This document shows, in pieces, positions 11,854 through 31,962 of a stretch of DNA of 32,107 nt. The translations under genes were made by a program, and so were the position numbers. This DNA comes from Chloroflexota bacterium (GTDB taxonomy: Bacteria > Chloroflexota > Dehalococcoidia > JACPEP01). The stretch spans positions 1 through 32,107 of the forward strand of contig JACPEP010000043.1 of assembly GCA_016183425.1 (NCBI GenBank), given 5' to 3'. Within the stretch, counting starts at the first letter, position 1; each line of letters begins with the position of its first letter. The notes beneath the pieces are model-generated. The model had not been told where the DNA came from. It did no database searches and was given only the letters and a program-made list of their open reading frames with translations.

Positions 11854-11902
11854 CGAGGAAGGGTTATTTGTGGTAAAGCCAGAAGGCAGAGGTGATGCCA
11901 CC

Positions 11903-13138
11903 ATGAGTCAGAGCGCCCTTTCCGACCTGAAGGTAGTGGAGTACGGACAGTTCATCTCCGCCCCCTACTGCGCCAAGCGGCTGGCGAGCCTGGGGGCGGA
12001 GGTGGTCAAGGTGGAGCCGCCGGGGGTGGGGGATATGGCCCGCCGGATGGGGCCTTTCCGGGATGATATTCCCCATCCTGAGAGGAGCGGCCTCTTTCTC
12101 TACCTCAACATGAACAAGCTAGGCACTACCCTGGACGTGGCCAACCCCCGGGGCAAGAAGATATTCCTTGCCCTGATCAAAGATGCCGACATCCTGGTGG
12201 AGAACAACCCCCCTCAGAGGATGGAGGAGCTGGGCTTGGACTATCCCCACTTACGGGAGGCCAATCCACGAATCATCATGACCTCCATCACCCCCTTCGG
12301 GCAGACGGGGCCTTATCGGGACTACAAAGGCAACGACCTCATCGCCTTCCACACCAGCGGCATGGCCTACGATACCCGAGGGCCGGTGGCCGACCCCAAT
12401 GCCATACCCCCCATCAAAGCCGGGGGACGTCAGGCAGACTATACAGGAGGGGTGCTGGGGGCAGCCGCCACCATGTCCGCCCTCTTCTACCGCCACCTGA
12501 CAGACGAAGGGCAGCACGTGGACGTATCCCAGCAGGAAGCCCTGGCCATCTTCCTTCGAGCGGGGATATTATCCTATACCGGCTACGACCCATCGCACAT
12601 CCGCCGCCCCCTGCCCAAAGGGCCCCAGCCCATCGGCGGCTTCCTCCCCTATACCCCCTTACCCTGCAAAGACGGCATGATCTGCTTCCAATCCATCGAA
12701 GAGTACCAGTGGTGGAACTTTGTCGAAATCATGGGCAATCCCGAGTGGGCCGCCGACGAGCGCTTTGTGGATAATACCACCCGCCGCGATAACATGGACG
12801 CCCTTTACCCCCTCCTGGCCCAGTGGACAATGCAGCACACCAGAGAGGAAATCTACCATGCCGCCCAGGCCAACCACTGCACCGTCTTTCCGGTGAATAC
12901 GGTGGAGGACTTGTTCAAGGCCCGCCAGCTTCAGGAGCGGGAGTTCTTTGTGGAGCTAGAGCACCCAGAGGCAGGCCCACTCCGCTACCCGGGAGCGCCC
13001 TACAAGCTCTCTGAAACCCCAGCCCAGATAAACAGTGCCGCCCCCCTCCTGGGCCAGCACAACGAAGAGATTCTGTGCCAACGTCTGGGTTACTCCCCAG
13101 AGGAGTTGGCGATTATGCACCAGATGAGGATAATCTAG
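11903..13138 (+). CDS. Class III (CaiB/BaiF) CoA-transferase
   Basis: A 411-residue family III CoA-transferase, which moves CoA between carboxylic acids through an enzyme-bound anhydride on an aspartate. The opening LKVVEYGQFISAPYCAKRLA and the phrase GAEVVKVEPPG are family hallmarks. The likely catalytic Asp is D179 (QADYTGG), close to the Asp169 position of formyl-CoA transferase, followed by GQHVDVSQQEA. ATG 11903 has GAGGTGA upstream; an in-frame GTG at 11870 would add 11 residues. It is 20 bases ahead of a second member of the family. The substrate cannot be deduced. Confidence 0.88.
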   Translation: MSQSALSDLKVVEYGQFISAPYCAKRLASLGAEVVKVEPPGVGDMARRMGPFRDDIPHPERSGLFLYLNMNKLGTTLDVANPRGKKIFLALIKDADILVENNPPQRMEELGLDYPHLREANPRIIMTSITPFGQTGPYRDYKGNDLIAFHTSGMAYDTRGPVADPNAIPPIKAGGRQADYTGGVLGAAATMSALFYRHLTDEGQHVDVSQQEALAIFLRAGILSYTGYDPSHIRRPLPKGPQPIGGFLPYTPLPCKDGMICFQSIEEYQWWNFVEIMGNPEWAADERFVDNTTRRDNMDALYPLLAQWTMQHTREEIYHAAQANHCTVFPVNTVEDLFKARQLQEREFFVELEHPEAGPLRYPGAPYKLSETPAQINSAAPLLGQHNEEILCQRLGYSPEELAIMHQMRII

Positions 13139-13158
13139 ACCGACATCCAGGAGATGCC

Positions 13159-14373
13159 ATGAAACCCCTTCCCTTCAGCAATATAAGAGTGGCCGACTTT
13201 AGCTGGGTCTATGCCGGGCCCCTATGCACCCAGTGGCTGGCGGAGCTCGGAGCGGAGGTCATCAAAGTCGAGAGCAACCACCACACCGACGCCTCCCGCC
13301 GTCTGGCCCCCCATCACGGCGGCGTCTTCGGCCTGAACCGCAGCGCTCAGTTCAACAGCCTCAATTGCAGCAAGAAGTCCATTACCATCAACATGAGCAA
13401 GCCCCGGGGCCGGGAGCTGGCCAAGGAGCTTATCAAAAACAGCGATGTGGTGGTGGAAAACTTCGCCGCCGGAGTCATGGAACGCCTGGGTCTAGGGTAT
13501 GAAACCCTGAAAGAGCTGAAACCAGATATCGTGATGCTGTCCCTCTCCGGCCTGGGCAAAACGGGGCCGGAGCGCTCCTATGTCGCCTGGGGCCCCGTTC
13601 TCACCGGATTCACCGGCCTTACCTCCCTTACCGGCTTTCCCGATGGGCGGTTGTGGGGAGTGGGGGGCACCTGGGTTGACCATCTGTGCGCCATGACCGC
13701 CGCCTTCTGTCTCTCGGCAGCCCTTCACCATCGACGACGCACCGGGCAGGGGCAGTACATTGACGTCTCCATGCTGGAGAATACCGTAGCCCAATTAGGA
13801 GAGGCTACCATGGACTTCTCCCTGAATGGTCGGGTGAGGGGGCCGCTGGGCAACTGGGACGACATCCAAGCGCCCCACAACTGTTATCCCTGTCGGGAAG
13901 ATGACACCTGGGTGGTGTTGGCTGTGGCCGACGACCGGGAGTGGCGCGCCCTGTGCCAGGTAATGGGCGATCCGCCCTGGACAAAGGAAGAGCGTTTCGC
14001 CGATAGCTACCGAAGGTGGCAGAATCGGGAGGCTCTGGACCAACTTATGGCAACCTGGACCAGACAGCACACGCCTCAGGAGGTAACGGAGCTCCTTCAA
14101 AAGGCCGGGGTCGCCGCGGGTCCGTCTCACAACGTTCCCGGTCTGGTAGAAGACCCCCATCTCAACCAGCGGGGTTTTTTCGTAGAAGTGGTTCACCCCG
14201 AGGTAGGGCCACAGCGCATGGCGGGCCTGCCCTGGAAGCTGAGCGCCTGCCCGGAGCCCAACTATCAACCACCGCCTTTGCTGGGCCAGGACAACTACCA
14301 GGTCTTTTGCCAGCTTCTGGGACTCCCCGAGACGGAATTTGCCCAGTTGGTGGCCGACGAGGTGATTTTTTGA
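13159..14373 (+). CDS. Class III (CaiB/BaiF) CoA-transferase, second copy
   Basis: A 404-residue paralogue of the preceding gene but clearly diverged, so not a recent duplicate. It shows IRVADFSWVYAGPLCTQWLA, GAEVIKVES, catalytic Asp candidate D174 (TWVDHL) and RTGQGQYIDVSMLE. AGGAGAT precedes ATG 13159, which is preferred over an upstream start that would overlap the first gene. Two dissimilar class III subunits side by side occur in heteromeric enzymes such as benzylsuccinate CoA-transferase (BbsEF) and Chloroflexus succinyl-CoA:malate CoA-transferase (SmtAB). A heteromer is therefore plausible here, though unproven. Confidence 0.88.
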   Translation: MKPLPFSNIRVADFSWVYAGPLCTQWLAELGAEVIKVESNHHTDASRRLAPHHGGVFGLNRSAQFNSLNCSKKSITINMSKPRGRELAKELIKNSDVVVENFAAGVMERLGLGYETLKELKPDIVMLSLSGLGKTGPERSYVAWGPVLTGFTGLTSLTGFPDGRLWGVGGTWVDHLCAMTAAFCLSAALHHRRRTGQGQYIDVSMLENTVAQLGEATMDFSLNGRVRGPLGNWDDIQAPHNCYPCREDDTWVVLAVADDREWRALCQVMGDPPWTKEERFADSYRRWQNREALDQLMATWTRQHTPQEVTELLQKAGVAAGPSHNVPGLVEDPHLNQRGFFVEVVHPEVGPQRMAGLPWKLSACPEPNYQPPPLLGQDNYQVFCQLLGLPETEFAQLVADEVIF

Positions 14374-17864: not shown

Positions 17865-17973
17865 GGGGAGATAAAAGGAGGAGGTGGCAGAAGAGACCTG
17901 GGCGATGAAAACAGACAAAAACAAAGAATAATGAGTGAGAGCAAGTTCCGAGTGTGTAGAAAAGGAGTGAATG

Positions 17974-18738
17974 ATGGCTTACCGGTACATCTTCTACGAG
18001 AAAAAGGGACAGATCGCCTATGTAACCCTAAACCGCCCCGAGGTGGGCAACTCCCATATAGCTGCCATGGGTGAGGAGCTAACGGAGGCCTGGAACGACG
18101 CCAACAGAGACGAGAATATTCGGGTGGCCATCCTGACCGGCGCCGGGGACAGATTCTTCTGCACCGGGGCCGATGCCAAGGCGGCATCTCAGGGCATCCC
18201 CGTTACTCCGTGGGGCGACATCCCCGAGAACTTCTGGAAACCAGCTATCCTGGCCATCAACGGGGTGTGTGCCGGGGGAGGATGGCACTTCGTGTGGCAG
18301 AGCGACTTCGCCATCTGCGCCGATCACGCCACCTTCCTTGAGCCTCATGTCAGCATCGGCTGGGTGCCCCTACGGGAGATGATGGGCCTGGCCAACCGAG
18401 CTCCCCTGAGCGTGGTATTGCGCATGGCCTTCATGGGCACCAAAGAGCGCATAGACGCCAAGCGGGCCTACGAGTTGGGCATCATCACCGAGGTTGTCCC
18501 CTACCCTCAGCTCATGTCCCGGGCCACGGAGATAGCCGAGGCCATCTGTGAGCAGGGACCCCTGGCTGTGGCCGCTACTAAGGAAGCCTTGCACCGTGCC
18601 TACGAGCTACGCTTCGCCCAGAGGGAGGCCTTCGTCTACGGCGACCTCCTGCGGGAGAGGACTCACCTCAGCGAGGACTTCATCGAGGGGCCACGTGCCT
18701 TTGCCCAAAAGCGAAAGCCAGTGTGGAAAGGAAGATAG
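17974..18738 (+). CDS. Crotonase (enoyl-CoA hydratase/isomerase) paralogue 1, His/His active site
   Basis: A 254-residue crotonase-fold protein. Oxyanion-hole elements are seen: ILTGAGDRFFCTGADAKA and NGVCAGGGWHFVWQSDF. In classic enoyl-CoA hydratase the two catalytic glutamates (144 and 164) occupy GGGCE and QPE. Here the aligned residues are H105 (GGGWH) and H125 (EPHVS), the same 20 residues apart. The reaction is therefore not predictable and may not be standard hydration. The start at ATG 17974 matches the MAY opening of the two following paralogues; another ATG lies three bases upstream. AAAGGAG precedes it. First of a tandem trio. Confidence 0.88.
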   Translation: MAYRYIFYEKKGQIAYVTLNRPEVGNSHIAAMGEELTEAWNDANRDENIRVAILTGAGDRFFCTGADAKAASQGIPVTPWGDIPENFWKPAILAINGVCAGGGWHFVWQSDFAICADHATFLEPHVSIGWVPLREMMGLANRAPLSVVLRMAFMGTKERIDAKRAYELGIITEVVPYPQLMSRATEIAEAICEQGPLAVAATKEALHRAYELRFAQREAFVYGDLLRERTHLSEDFIEGPRAFAQKRKPVWKGR

Positions 18739-18767
18739 ATTCCTCAGTATCAATAAGGAGGCAGTCC

Positions 18768-19538
18768 ATGGCTTACAAAGCTATTACCTACGAAAAGAAG
18801 GGCCGCATCGCTTACGTCACTCTTAACCGGCCAGAGGTAGCCAACGCTCACAACGGCGTCATGGGCCGGGAACTGCGGGAGGCATGGGAGGACGCCAATA
18901 AGGATGAGAACATATGGGTGGCCATCCTAACCGGTGCCGGCGATAAACACTTCTGCACGGGAGCGGACATGCGGGCCGCCACGGAGGGAGAATCGGGCGG
19001 CGGCGGGTGGGGAGATATCCCGGAGGATTTCTGGAAGCCCGTCATTCTGGCCATCAACGGGGTGTGCGCCGGTGGGGGGTGGCACTTCGTGTGGCAGAGC
19101 GACTTCGCCATCGCCTCGGAGCACGCCACCTTCTTGGAGCCCCACGTCAGCGTGGGCTGGGTGCCCCTGAGGGAGATGCTGGGGGCCGCCAACCGGATGC
19201 CTCTGAGCGCGGCGCTGCGCATGGCCATGCTGGGCACTAAGGAGCGCATGACCGCCCAGCGGGCCTTCGACCTGGGGGTCATCACCGAGGTGGTGCCCCA
19301 AACTCAACTCATGCCTCGGGCAACAGAGATTGCCGGATGGATCTGCGAGCAAGCACCCCTGGCGGTTCAGTCTATCAAGGAGGTGCTCCACCGCGCCTAT
19401 GAGCTGCGCTATGCCCAGCGGGAGGTCTTCGAATACGGGAATATGCTGAGGGAATTCAAGACCCACCACAGCGAAGACTACCTGGAGGGGCCGCGAGCCT
19501 TCGTGCAGAAGCGCAAGCCGGTATGGAAGGGAAAGTAA
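18768..19538 (+). CDS. Crotonase paralogue 2, His/His active site
   Basis: A 256-residue close relative of the preceding gene: both contain GGGWHFVWQSDFAI and a near-identical GWVPLREM segment, so it arose by tandem duplication. Histidines H106 and H126 replace the two catalytic glutamates of canonical hydratases. The most variable part is a short glycine-rich loop after GADMRAA. AAGGAGG lies eight bases before ATG 18768, and the gap to the previous gene is 29 bases. CoA-thioester binding is expected in the cytoplasm; the substrate is unknown. Confidence 0.88.
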   Translation: MAYKAITYEKKGRIAYVTLNRPEVANAHNGVMGRELREAWEDANKDENIWVAILTGAGDKHFCTGADMRAATEGESGGGGWGDIPEDFWKPVILAINGVCAGGGWHFVWQSDFAIASEHATFLEPHVSVGWVPLREMLGAANRMPLSAALRMAMLGTKERMTAQRAFDLGVITEVVPQTQLMPRATEIAGWICEQAPLAVQSIKEVLHRAYELRYAQREVFEYGNMLREFKTHHSEDYLEGPRAFVQKRKPVWKGK

Positions 19539-19540
19539 CT

Positions 19541-20326
19541 ATGGCCTACGAGACCATCATCTACGAGAAAAAAAATCGCATCGCCTACGTCACCCTCAAC
19601 CGCCCCCAGCGGGGCAACAGCTTCAACAGCGTCCTGTGCCAGGAGCAGGCAGAGGTCTTCGAGGATATCAAAAATGACGACAATATCTGGGGCATAATCC
19701 TCACCGGAGCTGGCGACCGCTTTTTCTCCACCGGCATCGACCAGCGGGAGGCGGCGGATTCCCCCGAGTTTCGGGCGCGGGGCGTAAACCCGGCAAACTT
19801 TGCCGACCGCCCCGATGGGCTGTGGAAACCCTACATCGTGGCCATCAACGGCATGTGCTGCGGCGGCGGCGTCCACTATATCTGGCAGAGCGACATCGCC
19901 ATCGCCGCCGAGCACGCCACCTTCTTCGACCCCCACGTTACCCGGGGCTGGGTGCCAGTGCGGGAGATGCTGGGCATGGCCACTCGGATGCCCTTCGGCG
20001 TGGCCATGCGAATGGCCATCATGGGCACCTCGGAGCGTATCGATGCCAAACGGGCCCTGGAGTTGGGTCTGGTGACGGAGTTGGTGCCATACGAGCGGCT
20101 CATCCCTCGCGCCACGGAGATAATGGAGCAGATACTGGAGCAATCTCCCTTGGCGGTGCGGGCTATCATCGAGACCATGCATCGGGGCATGGGGCTGGAG
20201 TATCACTACCGCATGGAGAAGGAGATGGGAGAGCTCATACGACAGCCGACACAGAACACCGAGGACCGTAAAGAGGGGAGCCGCGCCTTCGCCGAGAAGC
20301 GAAAGCCGGTGTGGAAGGCACGCTAA
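19541..20326 (+). CDS. Crotonase paralogue 3, His/His active site
   Basis: A 261-residue member of the same trio, more diverged. It has ILTGAGDRFFSTGIDQREA, NGMCCGGGVHYIWQSDIAIA and DPHVTRGWVPVREM. H112 and H132 again stand where E144 and E164 of rat enoyl-CoA hydratase would be. The ATG is two bases after the previous stop, and GGAAGGGAAAG at the end of that gene serves as ribosome binding site, so the three genes form one operon that ends at the strong hairpin at 20343-20373. Confidence 0.88.
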   Translation: MAYETIIYEKKNRIAYVTLNRPQRGNSFNSVLCQEQAEVFEDIKNDDNIWGIILTGAGDRFFSTGIDQREAADSPEFRARGVNPANFADRPDGLWKPYIVAINGMCCGGGVHYIWQSDIAIAAEHATFFDPHVTRGWVPVREMLGMATRMPFGVAMRMAIMGTSERIDAKRALELGLVTELVPYERLIPRATEIMEQILEQSPLAVRAIIETMHRGMGLEYHYRMEKEMGELIRQPTQNTEDRKEGSRAFAEKRKPVWKAR

Positions 20327-20342: not shown

Positions 20343-20373
20343 AGGGGCGCTCCCCCCAAGGGGGAGCGCCCCT
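20343..20373. terminator. Bidirectional intrinsic terminator
   Basis: A perfect 14-bp stem, AGGGGCGCTCCCCC and its complement, with a three-base loop (CAA), lies between two convergent genes. It is 16 bases after the crotonase operon stop and 2 bases before the end of the minus-strand gene. The run of T after the stem is short. Confidence 0.8.
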
Positions 20374-20375
20374 TT

Positions 20376-21089
20376 CTACCTCCGCCGACTGGCAAGCATA
20401 TTGGCCAGCAGGTTGATGCCGTACTCGGAGGCGTGAGCCAAGCCCATATCCTCGATATTGTTCCAGAACCCCTTGCAGGTGCGGAGGGCGGTGGCGTCCT
20501 GGGCCAAAAAGGTGGAGACCACATTTGACACCGCTTCCTCCAACTGGTTTTGGGGCACCACCTGATTCACCAACCCCAGCCTCTCCGCCTCCAGGGCGTC
20601 CATCTCTCGTCCGGTGGTCACCAGCTCAAAGGCCTTCTTTCGCGGCATCCATCGGGAGAGGTAAGACATGACCACCGTGGGAGCGAGGCCAGACTTTATC
20701 TCCGGGAAGCCAAAACGGGCCTCCTGGGCGGCGATGGTGATATCGCAGCGGATGGCCAGGCCACACCCAAAACCCAGGGCCCGCCCCTGCACCACGGCCA
20801 GGGTAATGGCAGAAAGCTGCGTCAGAAGGTCATTGACCATCGTAATCTTCCGAAGTCCCTCCCTTATCTCATGGGCCGACGGCGGCGGTGGCCCCGCCTC
20901 CCGGCCAACACAGAAATCGGCGCCCGCCCCCCTCAGGACGACGATGCGGCAGTTATCGTCTCCCTTAATGCCCTTCAAGGCGGCGGTCAGTTGCGCCATG
21001 GTCTCTCCATCCACAGCGTTGCCCGCCTCAGGGCGACTCAAAGTGACGGTGGCCAATGGCCCCAGGGCTTCTACCAGAACCTCGGTCAA
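20376..21089 (-). CDS. Enoyl-CoA hydratase/isomerase family protein
   Basis: A 237-residue crotonase read from TTG 21089, which has AAGGAGGG seven bases upstream; the longer frame would run through a perfect hairpin at 21117-21142 and is unlikely. Oxyanion-hole stretches VLRGAGADFCVG and GRALGFGCGLAIRCDI are present. E130 (GFPEIKSG) matches the second catalytic Glu of hydratases, while the first is replaced by G110. Such one-Glu members include isomerases and methylglutaconyl-CoA-hydratase-like enzymes. It is not close to the + strand crotonase trio. It is the last gene of a minus-strand group with the MGMT-like and molybdenum enzyme genes. Confidence 0.87.
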   Translation of the reverse strand: MTEVLVEALGPLATVTLSRPEAGNAVDGETMAQLTAALKGIKGDDNCRIVVLRGAGADFCVGREAGPPPPSAHEIREGLRKITMVNDLLTQLSAITLAVVQGRALGFGCGLAIRCDITIAAQEARFGFPEIKSGLAPTVVMSYLSRWMPRKKAFELVTTGREMDALEAERLGLVNQVVPQNQLEEAVSNVVSTFLAQDATALRTCKGFWNNIEDMGLAHASEYGINLLANMLASRRR

Positions 21090-21116
21090 TCCCCTTCCCT
21101 CCTTCTCAACAAGACG

Positions 21117-21142
21117 ATACCCCACAACTAATTGTGGGGTAT
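21117..21142. repeat. Perfect 11-bp hairpin upstream of the minus-strand crotonase
   Basis: ATACCCCACAA, loop CTAA, TTGTGGGGTAT. It lies between the MGMT-like gene and the TTG start of the crotonase. It could be an mRNA-processing or attenuating hairpin or a remnant of a dispersed palindrome. Confidence 0.6.
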
Positions 21143-21166
21143 CCCAACATCCAACTATCATTCCCT

Positions 21167-21729: not shown

Positions 21730-24165
21730 CTAGCCAACCGGAGAGCTCTTAAGCCGCGCCCTGCGGATCTCCTGCCATATATAATCGGGGCGCAGAGGCA
21801 CCTGGCGAAGCTCTACCCCCAGGGGCCTCAGGGCATCGTCCACGGCGTTGGCCAGGGTGGGAGGTGGCCCCACCGTGCCCGTCTCCCCCGCCCCCTTGAA
21901 TCCTCCCGGGTTGAAGGGGTTGGGAGTGACTATCTCGCTCAAGGTGAGGGGCGGCACCTCCTGGGCAGTGGGCACCAGATAATCCTTGAAGTTGGCGTTC
22001 AAGGGCTGGCCATTCTCATCGTATATTATTTCTTCATACAGCGCGCCCCCGATGCCGTGAAGAAGAGCGCCCACGTGCTGTCCCTCCACCACTACGGGGT
22101 TAATGACATTGCCGCAGTCGTGCACAGATACGTACTTGAGCACCTTGACCTTCCCCGTATCCACGTCCACCTCCACCACCGCCACGTCGGCATCGTAAGG
22201 AAAGCTGGAGAACATACCCACCCGGCCGTGCTCATCGGCCTGGTAGGTCACGTTGGGATCCCGGTGGTGGTAGGTGACCTCCAGCCCCGGTTCCATACCC
22301 GGAGGTAGACGGTAGAGGGACATGTAGGCGACACGGGCGATGTCTCTGAAGGTCAACCCCTCATCAGGTCGCGGTAAGGAGTAGACGCGCCCCTGATACA
22401 CCTCCAGGTTGTCCTGGGGTTCTCCCAGGAGATGGGAGGCGAGACGGAGCACCTTCTCCTTCAACTGTCGGGCAGCCATGATCACCGCCGAGCTCCCCAC
22501 CACGGCAAAGCGGCTGGAGTAAGAGCCGGAGCCGTAGGGGGTGAGGAGGCTGTCACCTTCCAGCACAGTAATGTCATCGAAAGCGGCCCCCAGCTCGTCG
22601 GCGGTGAGCTGCGAAATCGTCGTACGGTGGCCTTGGCCCTCGTCGTTGCCTCCGGTGAGGACATAAACCTTGCCCGAGGGGTCGATTCGCATGGTGACGG
22701 AGTAGTAGCCGGCATTGTAGGAGCCCATGCGGGTGGAGCTAGAAGGCTCCACCACCAGGGCAACCCCGATGCCCAGATAGCGCCCCTCTTTTCTCAGACG
22801 CTCCTGCTCCCGCCGCCAGTAGGAGTAATCCGCCAAGTCCATGGCCTTCTGTAAAGCCGCTGGATAGTTGCCGCTATCGTAGCGGGAGCCGGTAGCACAC
22901 AGATAGGGAAACTCTTCGGGCTGGATAAAGTTTCGGAAGCGAATCTCCGCCGGGCCGATGCCCAGGCGGTGGGCGATGATGTCCATCATGCGCTCGATGG
23001 TGTAGCAGGCCTCGGCCTTGCCGAAGCCCCGATGGGGGCCAAAGGGGGTCTTGTTGGTCACTACCCCGTAGAGCTGGGCGGCGTAGTTCTGGATCTTGTA
23101 GGCGCCAGGGACGAACATGGCGGTGGTGACGATGGCGGCCAGCCCGCCCACAGGGTAAGCGATGCCGATGTCGGCGATAATTCGATCCCGCAGCCCCAGG
23201 ATGGTGCCGTCCTTCTTCACCGCCATCTCCACGTAGTGAACCTGGTCTCGGGCGTGGATGGTGGCCACCATGTGCTCGCTGCGGGTCTCCACCCACTTCA
23301 CCGGGCGCTGAGTAAGGAGGGAGAGAAGGGGAATGAGGCCCTCCTCCGGATAGTAGCCCCACTTCTGGCCATAGCCGCCGCCGACGCGGGGGGCGATGAC
23401 CCGAATTTTCAGCTCCGGCCGGTTCAGGGTCTCGTGGAGGAGCTGGTTGATGAGGTGGGGAATCTGGGTGGCATCCCAAACCGTAAGCTGCTTCGTCCCC
23501 ACCTCGTAGCTGGCCACCACCGCCCGGGTCTCCATGGGTGTGCCGGTAAAGCGGGTGCTTTTTATCCTTTCCTTCACCACCAGGTCTGCCTCCTGGAAGG
23601 CCTTGTCCAGGTCGCCCCCCTCCACATGGAAGCGCAACATGACGTTATCCCGCCACGGCTCGTAAACCCGCTCGGACGACTCTCCCATGGCCGCCTCGGG
23701 GTCGGTGATGGGCGGCAGGGGGTCGAACTCGGCTTCTATCAGCTCCAGGGCGTCCTCGGCGATGTAGCGATGGGTGGCCACGATGACGGCCACCGCCTCC
23801 CCCACGAAGCGCGCCTTATCGGTGGCCAAAAAATAGTGGTCGAAGAACTGGATGGTGGGGTTGCCCACCCGAAAGGGGTCTCGGCTCTGAAAGGGGAAGG
23901 GGGCCATGGGCTTAACCATGTCCACAATGTCCTTGCCCGTGAGCCCCATGACCACCCCCGGCAACTCCAGGGCCCGGCTCAGGTCCACCTGCACGATACG
24001 GGCGTGGGCATGGGGGCTGCGGTAGATGGCGGCATAGAGCATATTGGGCAGCTTCATATCGGCGGTATAGCGAGCGGCGGCGGTGAGCGCCTCCAAATCT
24101 TCCTTGAGCTTGACGCCAGTGCCCACCAAGCGGCGCTTTTCTGTCTTAACGGCACCCTCAACCAT
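21730..24165 (-). CDS. Xanthine-dehydrogenase-family molybdenum-binding subunit (orphan)
   Basis: An 811-residue large subunit of a molybdenum hydroxylase. The a/b hammerhead domain comes first (GVKLKEDLEALTAAARYTAD onward), then two MoCo-binding domains with RVGGGYGQKWG, GPHRGFGKAE around H378, and the catalytic Glu E761 in KGAGETG. The Cys-containing loop of aerobic CO dehydrogenase (AYxCSFR) is absent, so it is an aldehyde/xanthine/hydroxybenzoyl-CoA-like hydroxylase rather than CoxL. The FAD and 2Fe-2S subunits, normally adjacent and needed for electron exit, are not in this window. ATG 24165 is chosen because GGGAG lies six bases upstream. The substrate is unknown. Confidence 0.85.
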   Translation of the reverse strand: MVEGAVKTEKRRLVGTGVKLKEDLEALTAAARYTADMKLPNMLYAAIYRSPHAHARIVQVDLSRALELPGVVMGLTGKDIVDMVKPMAPFPFQSRDPFRVGNPTIQFFDHYFLATDKARFVGEAVAVIVATHRYIAEDALELIEAEFDPLPPITDPEAAMGESSERVYEPWRDNVMLRFHVEGGDLDKAFQEADLVVKERIKSTRFTGTPMETRAVVASYEVGTKQLTVWDATQIPHLINQLLHETLNRPELKIRVIAPRVGGGYGQKWGYYPEEGLIPLLSLLTQRPVKWVETRSEHMVATIHARDQVHYVEMAVKKDGTILGLRDRIIADIGIAYPVGGLAAIVTTAMFVPGAYKIQNYAAQLYGVVTNKTPFGPHRGFGKAEACYTIERMMDIIAHRLGIGPAEIRFRNFIQPEEFPYLCATGSRYDSGNYPAALQKAMDLADYSYWRREQERLRKEGRYLGIGVALVVEPSSSTRMGSYNAGYYSVTMRIDPSGKVYVLTGGNDEGQGHRTTISQLTADELGAAFDDITVLEGDSLLTPYGSGSYSSRFAVVGSSAVIMAARQLKEKVLRLASHLLGEPQDNLEVYQGRVYSLPRPDEGLTFRDIARVAYMSLYRLPPGMEPGLEVTYHHRDPNVTYQADEHGRVGMFSSFPYDADVAVVEVDVDTGKVKVLKYVSVHDCGNVINPVVVEGQHVGALLHGIGGALYEEIIYDENGQPLNANFKDYLVPTAQEVPPLTLSEIVTPNPFNPGGFKGAGETGTVGPPPTLANAVDDALRPLGVELRQVPLRPDYIWQEIRRARLKSSPVG

Positions 24166-24237
24166 GCTTTGCTCCCTCAATACAAAAACTTCACTTAGCT
24201 TCCGCTCTGAACCTCAAGTACCCATACAACGTGAGAT

Positions 24238-30881: not shown

Positions 30882-31925
30882 TCACGAGATCAACTCATCT
30901 AGGGTTTGTAGAAAGAGTGTGGTATCGAGGTAGTAGCTTGGATATGCTGCTCTTAGTGTGGTAGCATCCGATACCGACACCAGCACAGTATCGCGCCCCC
31001 TCGTCGAAAATCGTTCTGAGGTTTCTGTCTGCTTGGACGCCGCTTCGATCTCTCCGGCACTGAAACCGAATAGCTTCAATTCTTCGACCCCTTCACTTGC
31101 ATTCAGTTCAAGCAGAATATACCTAATACCAGCGCGTCTTGTTGCTGCCTCTCCGATTACATTCAGCGTTTTCGAAAAGGCGGTCAATCGGCCCTTGACA
31201 TCCAGTCTGAGAGCATAAACGCGCAACTCATCAATAAGTTCCTTAGTGTTTTTCGGAGTTCTAGGAATGCGACGACATTCCTCACGGAGTGCTATCGCTG
31301 ATCCCATGAGGGCAAAGAACCGGCGCCAATCAGGAGAACCCCTATGAAACTTCAAACCCTCTCGGTAGAATATGTCAGCAGTCTCTACGGCGGTGGCCCA
31401 GTAATGTTGAAGCACTGAGCGGAATTGCATCTCGATCTTCAGGTTCTTATACTCGGGTCGCTTGTCGTTTGAGTAACGGTAAATCAAGTGGTAGCTTCGA
31501 TATCCATCACTCTTTGGATTGCGAATGTAATCCTTCTCATCGACAAGTTCGTGGTCTCCATATTTGCGCTTGTAAAGGCGCACCAGGTCATAGACTTGTG
31601 ATACTGATGATACAATGGCTCTGCATCCCGCAATATCCTGCATCTCAGACAGTTTGAGCCAATCGTAGCGCTTTAGTTTGTCCTCGATAGAAGAGAGCCG
31701 CTTTGTTCGCTGCGCCACAATACCACTTGTATCAACTTGTCGAGTTCTGTTCTTAAGGGTATTCTTGAAGATGCTTTCAGGATATTGATGCGCATTCTTC
31801 CAACTGTAGATAACGTCATACTTATCCAAGCCCATTTGGTTGAGGGCCTCCAAAGCCTCATCACGACCAATGAGGGCATCTCCAGCCAAATCAACGATGT
31901 CCCTCTGAGGTACAATGAACGGCAT
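30882..31925 (-). CDS. Stand-alone RelA/SpoT-type nucleotide synthetase domain protein
   Basis: A 347-residue protein with a RelA/SpoT (p)ppGpp-synthetase domain and no HD hydrolase or TGS/ACT domains. Seen: RTKRLSSIEDKLKR (72-86), MQDIAGCRAIV (near 95-105), the G-loop DYIRNPKSDGYRSYH (132-146) and the catalytic strand EMQFRSVLQHYWATAVE (165-181). The C-terminal 140 residues are helical and unrecognised. Small synthetases either make (p)ppGpp or, as toxSAS/CapRel-type toxins, pyrophosphorylate tRNA or make ppApp. ATG 31925 is preferred to one at 31952 because the MPFIVPQ opening fits the family. The gene is AT-richer than neighbours and sits beside a transposase gene, so it is likely accessory. 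Confidence 0.83.
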   Translation of the reverse strand: MPFIVPQRDIVDLAGDALIGRDEALEALNQMGLDKYDVIYSWKNAHQYPESIFKNTLKNRTRQVDTSGIVAQRTKRLSSIEDKLKRYDWLKLSEMQDIAGCRAIVSSVSQVYDLVRLYKRKYGDHELVDEKDYIRNPKSDGYRSYHLIYRYSNDKRPEYKNLKIEMQFRSVLQHYWATAVETADIFYREGLKFHRGSPDWRRFFALMGSAIALREECRRIPRTPKNTKELIDELRVYALRLDVKGRLTAFSKTLNVIGEAATRRAGIRYILLELNASEGVEELKLFGFSAGEIEAASKQTETSERFSTRGRDTVLVSVSDATTLRAAYPSYYLDTTLFLQTLDELIS

Positions 31926-31932
31926 GGCGCTC

Positions 31933-31962
31933 AACATAGCACAATGCACCATACTGAGTCAA
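31933..31962 (-). promoter_or_regulatory. Putative promoter of the RelA/SpoT-like gene
   Basis: On the minus strand, TTGACT (31962-31957), 18 bases, TATGTT (31938-31933). Transcription would start within a few bases of ATG 31925, giving a leaderless or near-leaderless mRNA and supporting that start over 31952. Confidence 0.4.

Follow-up and report, generated by a model that had tools for sequence, protein, structure and literature searches.

A tandem trio of crotonase-fold proteins in a Chloroflexota bacterium belongs to a multi-phylum clade marked by histidine and glutamate at rat positions 164 and 174

The classical enoyl-CoA hydratase (EC 4.2.1.17) relies on glutamates at positions 144 and 164, and the numbering of the rat mitochondrial enzyme, whose sequence was checked and found identical to PDB 1mj3/1dub, is used as the reference throughout. 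Other crotonase-fold CoA enzymes, BadI and EchA20, carry out a reverse-Dieckmann ring opening, the reaction type that is proposed below for the proteins described here, and MenB works in the opposite direction (PMC5380842). Closer to the active site of interest are 6-oxocamphor hydrolase (OCH, 1O8U) and the Anabaena beta-diketone hydrolase ABDH (2J5S), crotonase-fold proteins in which, as in the present case, a histidine stands at the position of rat Glu164 with an acidic residue close by. The catalytic residues of ABDH are H43, H144, D153 and E243, and in the Mycobacterium avium protein 3q1t the residue H146 was placed on rat Glu164 and ABDH H144, with D155 nine residues further on; on these grounds a beta-diketone hydrolase function was predicted for 3q1t (PMC3584854). 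A work cited in that article calls ABDH CoA-independent in its title (PMC3584854).

The window, that is, the whole stretch of 32,107 nucleotides that was analysed, comes from a 2.7 Mb Chloroflexota genome and holds three crotonase genes in tandem (the trio). The features discussed here are the following.

17971..18738, + strand, crotonase 1, 255 aa, alternative start at 17974; H106/H126/E136 at rat positions 144/164/174
18286..18288, + strand, codon CAC, His106 of crotonase 1 (rat Glu144 position; varies within the clade)
18346..18348, + strand, codon CAT, His126 of crotonase 1 (rat Glu164 position; hallmark of the clade)
18376..18378, + strand, codon GAG, Glu136 of crotonase 1 (rat Gly174 position; co-conserved with His164)
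18768..19538, + strand, crotonase 2, 256 aa; H106/H126/E136
19083..19085, + strand, codon CAC, His106 of crotonase 2
19143..19145, + strand, codon CAC, His126 of crotonase 2
19173..19175, + strand, codon GAG, Glu136 of crotonase 2
19541..20326, + strand, crotonase 3, 261 aa; H112/H132/E142
19874..19876, + strand, codon CAC, His112 of crotonase 3
19934..19936, + strand, codon CAC, His132 of crotonase 3
19964..19966, + strand, codon GAG, Glu142 of crotonase 3
20343..20373, unstranded, GC-rich perfect hairpin between convergent genes

All three reading frames are intact and match the Pfam ECH_1 domain (PF00378) over its full length with 148-156 bits against a cut-off of 27, and this domain together with the crotonase fold places the proteins in the crotonase superfamily. 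The fold is shared with the rat hydratase (1DUB/1MJ3), as is the GGG and GxD context of the oxyanion hole, both segments of which (GxD and NGxxxGGG) are found in every protein of the trio. The genes are separated by gaps of 29 and 2 bases and have Shine-Dalgarno-like (AGGAG-like) sequences, and the hairpin at 20343-20373 is likely a shared terminator that closes the trio. The housekeeping genes rsmD and coaD lie upstream, and the genes on the convergent side are unrelated; no pathway genes were found among the neighbours flanking the trio, which thus give no indication of a substrate. The genome as a whole yields 17 matches to PF00378, 12 to CaiB-type transferases and 9 to acyl-CoA dehydrogenases, counts that show a CoA-rich metabolism without pointing to what the trio acts upon.

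Alignment with the rat sequence puts histidine on both the E144 and the E164 column in three of three proteins, so that neither glutamate of the classical hydratase is present, while the 20-residue spacing, the GGG context and a common WQSD segment are kept. The preliminary description of this DNA had reported these features, along with a divergence of the three proteins mainly in the loop after the first oxyanion segment (GxD), which is indeed the main variable stretch of the alignment; its residue numbers (H105/H125, H106/H126 and H112/H132) are correct when counted from the MAY... starts. What it had described as the loss of both acid/base residues is, to judge from the sequences, a replacement: a glutamate ten residues past the second histidine (E136, E136 and E142) is invariant across the trio, giving H/H/E where the rat enzyme has E144/E164/G174, and with His164 and the new Glu174 constant the pair appears to have been rebuilt. 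It had also counted the same replacement in all three proteins as an argument. The proteins are 74, 56 and 55% identical in pairwise comparison, however, and their shared histidines are therefore a single inherited state and not three independent events; common descent is how the recurrence of these residues across neighbouring genes is to be read. For crotonases 1 and 2, the pair with 74% identity, dN is 0.176 and dS 1.40, and a dN/dS of about 0.13, a rough ratio as dS is near saturation, indicates purifying selection.

To collect relatives, about 100 in all, Chloroflexota genomes were searched with profiles, GTDB genome contigs were scanned once, and plasmids were searched by tblastn. The 80 loci from GTDB contigs were found in part by a peptide pattern with HV at position 164, which biases the frequency of His164 among them; Glu174 formed no part of that pattern, and the class-wide profile search is free of the bias. 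In the final set Glu174 accompanies His164 in 71 of 73 proteins and occurs in only one of 50 others. The motif of the clade reads F[FL][DE]PHVxxGxVxxxE, in which the glutamate, ten residues past His164, occupies the place of rat Gly174, and the GG that follows E164 in the loop of ordinary crotonases has become [R/L/W]-E. Position 144, on the other hand, is mostly Tyr, His or Asp, with a few cases of Phe, Ile, Leu, Glu, Met and Gln. The double histidine, which had been put forward as the defining feature, was accordingly rejected as a hallmark, as relatives with Tyr, Asp, Phe or Ile at 144 keep His164; the hallmark is His164 together with Glu174, and both are present in all three proteins of the trio.

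In a tree built without the three trait columns, the trio and the mycobacterial protein 3TLF fall in one clade apart from the Glu164 crotonases (SH-aLRT 100). Within this clade His164 and Glu174 have been lost jointly in three proteins, with Arg/Ser (L027), Ala/Ser (L036) and Arg/Gly (L145) in their place, and seven other Chloroflexota proteins (L039, L152, L154, L156, L157, L159 and L137) have Gly at 164 and Ala or Gly at 174, lineages that possibly perform another chemistry. Just two pairs were informative in a sign test of independence on the starred branches; both agree, and the p value is not significant. The pattern is suggestive of coupled evolution of the two residues as a functional pair.

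Members of the clade occur in Mycobacterium and other Actinomycetota, Acidimicrobiia, Sphingomonadales (Pseudomonadota), Binatia, Myxococcales and Chloroflexota, and in the class to which the window belongs about 15 of 343 genomes have one, as read from a gap in the scores near 285 bits. Crotonases 1 and 2 form a duplicate pair whose nearest relative, after each other, is a Chloroflexota protein at 57% identity (L010). Crotonase 3 is closest, at 71%, to a protein of RIFCSPLOWO2_12_FULL_60_19 (L040; Binatia/Deltaproteobacteria), closer than to its own neighbours. Tandem arrangements recur elsewhere: mycobacterial loci and one acidimicrobial locus (L041-L048 and L058, at about 7.9-9.6 kb) pair an Asp-type with a Tyr-type member of the clade, and such recurring, diverged pairs are compatible with either a substrate series or a heterotrimer. 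Genes near clade members encode acyl-CoA dehydrogenases, SDRs, thiolases, CoA ligases, CaiB-type transferases and other hydratases of the crotonase or MaoC type, and one locus, from Mycobacterium sp. M26 (L045), is surrounded by acyl-CoA synthetases, a thiolase, an amidohydrolase and further crotonases; these neighbourhoods would fit the breakdown of unusual acids in CoA-bound form.

The AlphaFold model of crotonase 2 has a mean pLDDT of 93 and matches hundreds of PDB crotonases with Z up to 32, the top Foldseek match being 3TLF, a structural-genomics entry from Mycobacterium avium subsp. paratuberculosis labelled 'enoyl-CoA hydratase/isomerase'. This protein scores 366 bits against the clade profile, compared with 200 for the next solved PDB protein, and belongs to the same clade as the trio. 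It has Asp, His and Glu at 144, 164 and 174, the Asp differing from the His of the trio, and mycobacterial genes of its Asp type are paired with a Tyr-type second crotonase, again unlike the trio. No paper on 3TLF came out of PMC searches for this entry and for crotonases that have histidine where glutamate is usual.

How far, then, does the resemblance to known C-C hydrolases extend? In the alignment His164 of the trio is matched by H145 of OCH (sequence verified against 1o8u), but the acid D154 lies one column ahead of Glu174, so that it follows the histidine at +9 in OCH and ABDH and at +10 in the trio, where +9 is Arg. The other catalytic columns differ as well: the trio shares none of H45, H122, D154 and E244 of OCH, and has Gly or Cys at 45 and Arg at 244. 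Membership in the OCH/ABDH family was therefore rejected, and the likeness at the His164 site would be analogous at most, though the trio may function in a similar way there. Membership in the BadI, MenB or EchA19 families was likewise rejected on scores far below the cut-offs; crotonase 3 reaches 101.9 bits with the BadI model (TIGR03210), against a cut-off of 467.6, and for crotonases 1 and 2 BadI is absent from the 25 best models. MenB and BadI are not known to have His164.

A second line of evidence comes from estrogen degradation. The A/B-ring pathway has been proposed to require hydrolysis of ring B (PMC12507874), and EGO55_13545, annotated as a BadI-like 2-ketocyclohexanecarboxyl-CoA hydrolase, a label that is an annotation, is the proposed agent of ring B opening (PMC7793797). 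Plasmid p3 of Novosphingobium sp. ES2-1 encodes a clade crotonase with His/His/Glu (NZ_CP063448, 145141-145947), flanked by a P450/OB-fold/lipid-transfer/crotonase block and a thiolase/OB-fold/SDR/acyl-CoA dehydrogenase block, with divergent genes for a VOC protein, an indolepyruvate:ferredoxin oxidoreductase, an acyl-CoA dehydrogenase and a MaoC protein. The gene order matches that of the edc cluster of N. tardaugens from edcA to EGO55_13565, and the ES2-1 crotonase occupies the place of EGO55_13545, an equivalence drawn from gene order alone. This crotonase is 36% identical to crotonase 2 and about 23% identical to OCH; its subclade differs from that of the trio, of which it is not the closest relative. 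The trio proteins may share the reaction of this estrogen-cluster member.

Taken together, these two independent lines, the histidine site of ABDH and OCH and the estrogen-cluster member, are the reason for reading the chemistry as hydrolytic C-C cleavage. The reading tentatively preferred here, though it falls somewhat short of probable, is that the three proteins are active enzymes that use CoA substrates, belong to an uncharacterised clade and employ a His164-Glu174 pair to cleave a beta-keto or beta-dicarbonyl acyl-CoA; a search of the literature found no assay of any clade member. The reaction would be of the retro-Claisen or reverse Dieckmann class, often with opening of a ring. Two backbone amides of the oxyanion hole, whose role is general to the superfamily and whose conserved segments are seen in the trio, would hold the thioester enolate, while Glu174 would polarise His164 and His164 would activate a water molecule to attack the keto carbon. 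The function of His164 and Glu174 as a water-activating base, and the geometry of such a dyad, are inferred from their co-conservation and by analogy with ABDH and OCH. Residue 144 (His, Tyr or Asp) would donate a proton to the leaving carbanion or stabilise it, as a second acid or an orienting residue, and the variation at this site suggests that it is the third and tunable member of the set. The product would be a ring-opened or chain-shortened acyl-CoA.

The main rival to a C-C hydrolase, and a somewhat unlikely one, is an atypical enoyl-CoA hydratase or 2,3/3,4-isomerase whose acid/base set has changed. Histidine would then take over from Glu as the general base, and the enzyme would add or remove water, or shift a double bond, on acyl-CoAs of an unusual kind (bulky, branched or aromatic). 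Crotonase isomerases tolerate the loss of one glutamate, the fold and the nearest curated models (EchA19, DpgD and CaiD) are those of hydratases, and the neighbours of clade members are beta-oxidation-like. Yet among the 25 best NCBIfam models no hydratase model exceeds its cut-off for the trio, the best score being about 179 bits against 400; the GG after E164 is gone, replaced by [R/L/W]-E; and other hydratases are often encoded close by.

Distinctly unlikely is an enzyme resembling methylmalonyl-CoA decarboxylase (MMCD) or otherwise protonating an enolate (a decarboxylase, epimerase or dehalogenase), in which residue 144 and His164 would hold a carboxylate in place or supply the enolate with a proton. 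The preponderance of Tyr, His and Asp at 144 in the clade would suit such a role, as MMCD relies on Tyr140 and His66, and an Asp of this loop (+8) serves 4-chlorobenzoyl-CoA dehalogenase. The constant feature of the clade is nevertheless His164/Glu174, which to our knowledge is absent from MMCD, 4-chlorobenzoyl-CoA dehalogenase and similar enzymes; the MMCD model gives 99 bits against 257, and no carboxylase, mutase or dehalogenase was found among the neighbours.

One might also regard the three proteins as catalytically silent paralogues that serve active crotonases as structural or regulatory partners in a hetero-oligomer and whose histidines have no catalytic role. Three tandem genes in a genome with 17 PF00378 matches, and the tandem clade members of mycobacteria, could be seen in this light, but the proposal is very unlikely, given that His164/Glu174 is almost invariant over several phyla, that many members are single genes, and that dN/dS between crotonases 1 and 2 is so low. 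Chance or decay, by which both Glu codons of ordinary hydratases drifted to His, was rejected as having next to no credibility in view of purifying selection and a co-conserved Glu174 across a single supported clade; in this the preliminary description, which argued for a distinct chemistry under selection and not decay, is upheld, for the signature is held over a large clade of several phyla and no curated NCBIfam family among those compared reaches its cut-off.

To return to the preferred C-C hydrolase, a wider proposal is possible but doubtful, namely that the clade is a large, unrecognised family of CoA-dependent C-C (ring-opening) hydrolases built on a His164-Glu174 dyad, with residue 144 tuning the substrate and the trio as a small substrate series. 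Clade proteins are labelled enoyl-CoA hydratase in the databases, including the mycobacterial structure and the enzyme of the estrogen-degradation pathway. A three-residue signature (a variable 144, His164 and Glu174) would let annotators separate the clade from hydratases and would predict steps of ring opening or C-C hydrolysis in pathways that degrade steroids and other cyclic acids. The clade would, moreover, add another independent route to rebuilt acid/base machinery on the crotonase scaffold.

Several minor observations concern other crotonases and other genes of the window. Among the Chloroflexota proteins with Gly at 164, position 144 is Ala in L157 and Met in the remaining six (L039, L152, L154, L156, L159 and L137). 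A separate Chloroflexota group (L138-L140, L142 and L163) has Ile or Leu at 144, retains His164 and Glu174, and has His in place of the Asp that ends the 144 helix (ESH for CD). L141, L143 and L144 are divergent crotonases with Val/Glu and Glu/Gly/Ser at 174, and after L143 and L144 come more crotonases in tandem, one of which has Met/His/Gly. The window itself has a fourth crotonase (20376-21161, - strand), convergent with the trio and with Gly/Glu/Val at 144/164/174; it is very divergent, forms the longest branch of the first tree and falls outside the clade of the trio. Elsewhere in the window are two CaiB/BaiF-type CoA-transferases in tandem (11870-14373, + strand), the molybdopterin-binding subunit of a xanthine-dehydrogenase-type enzyme (21730-24180, - strand), with no small or FAD subunit noted in the adjoining reading frames, and, at the window end, a RelA/SpoT-domain protein (30882-31952, - strand).
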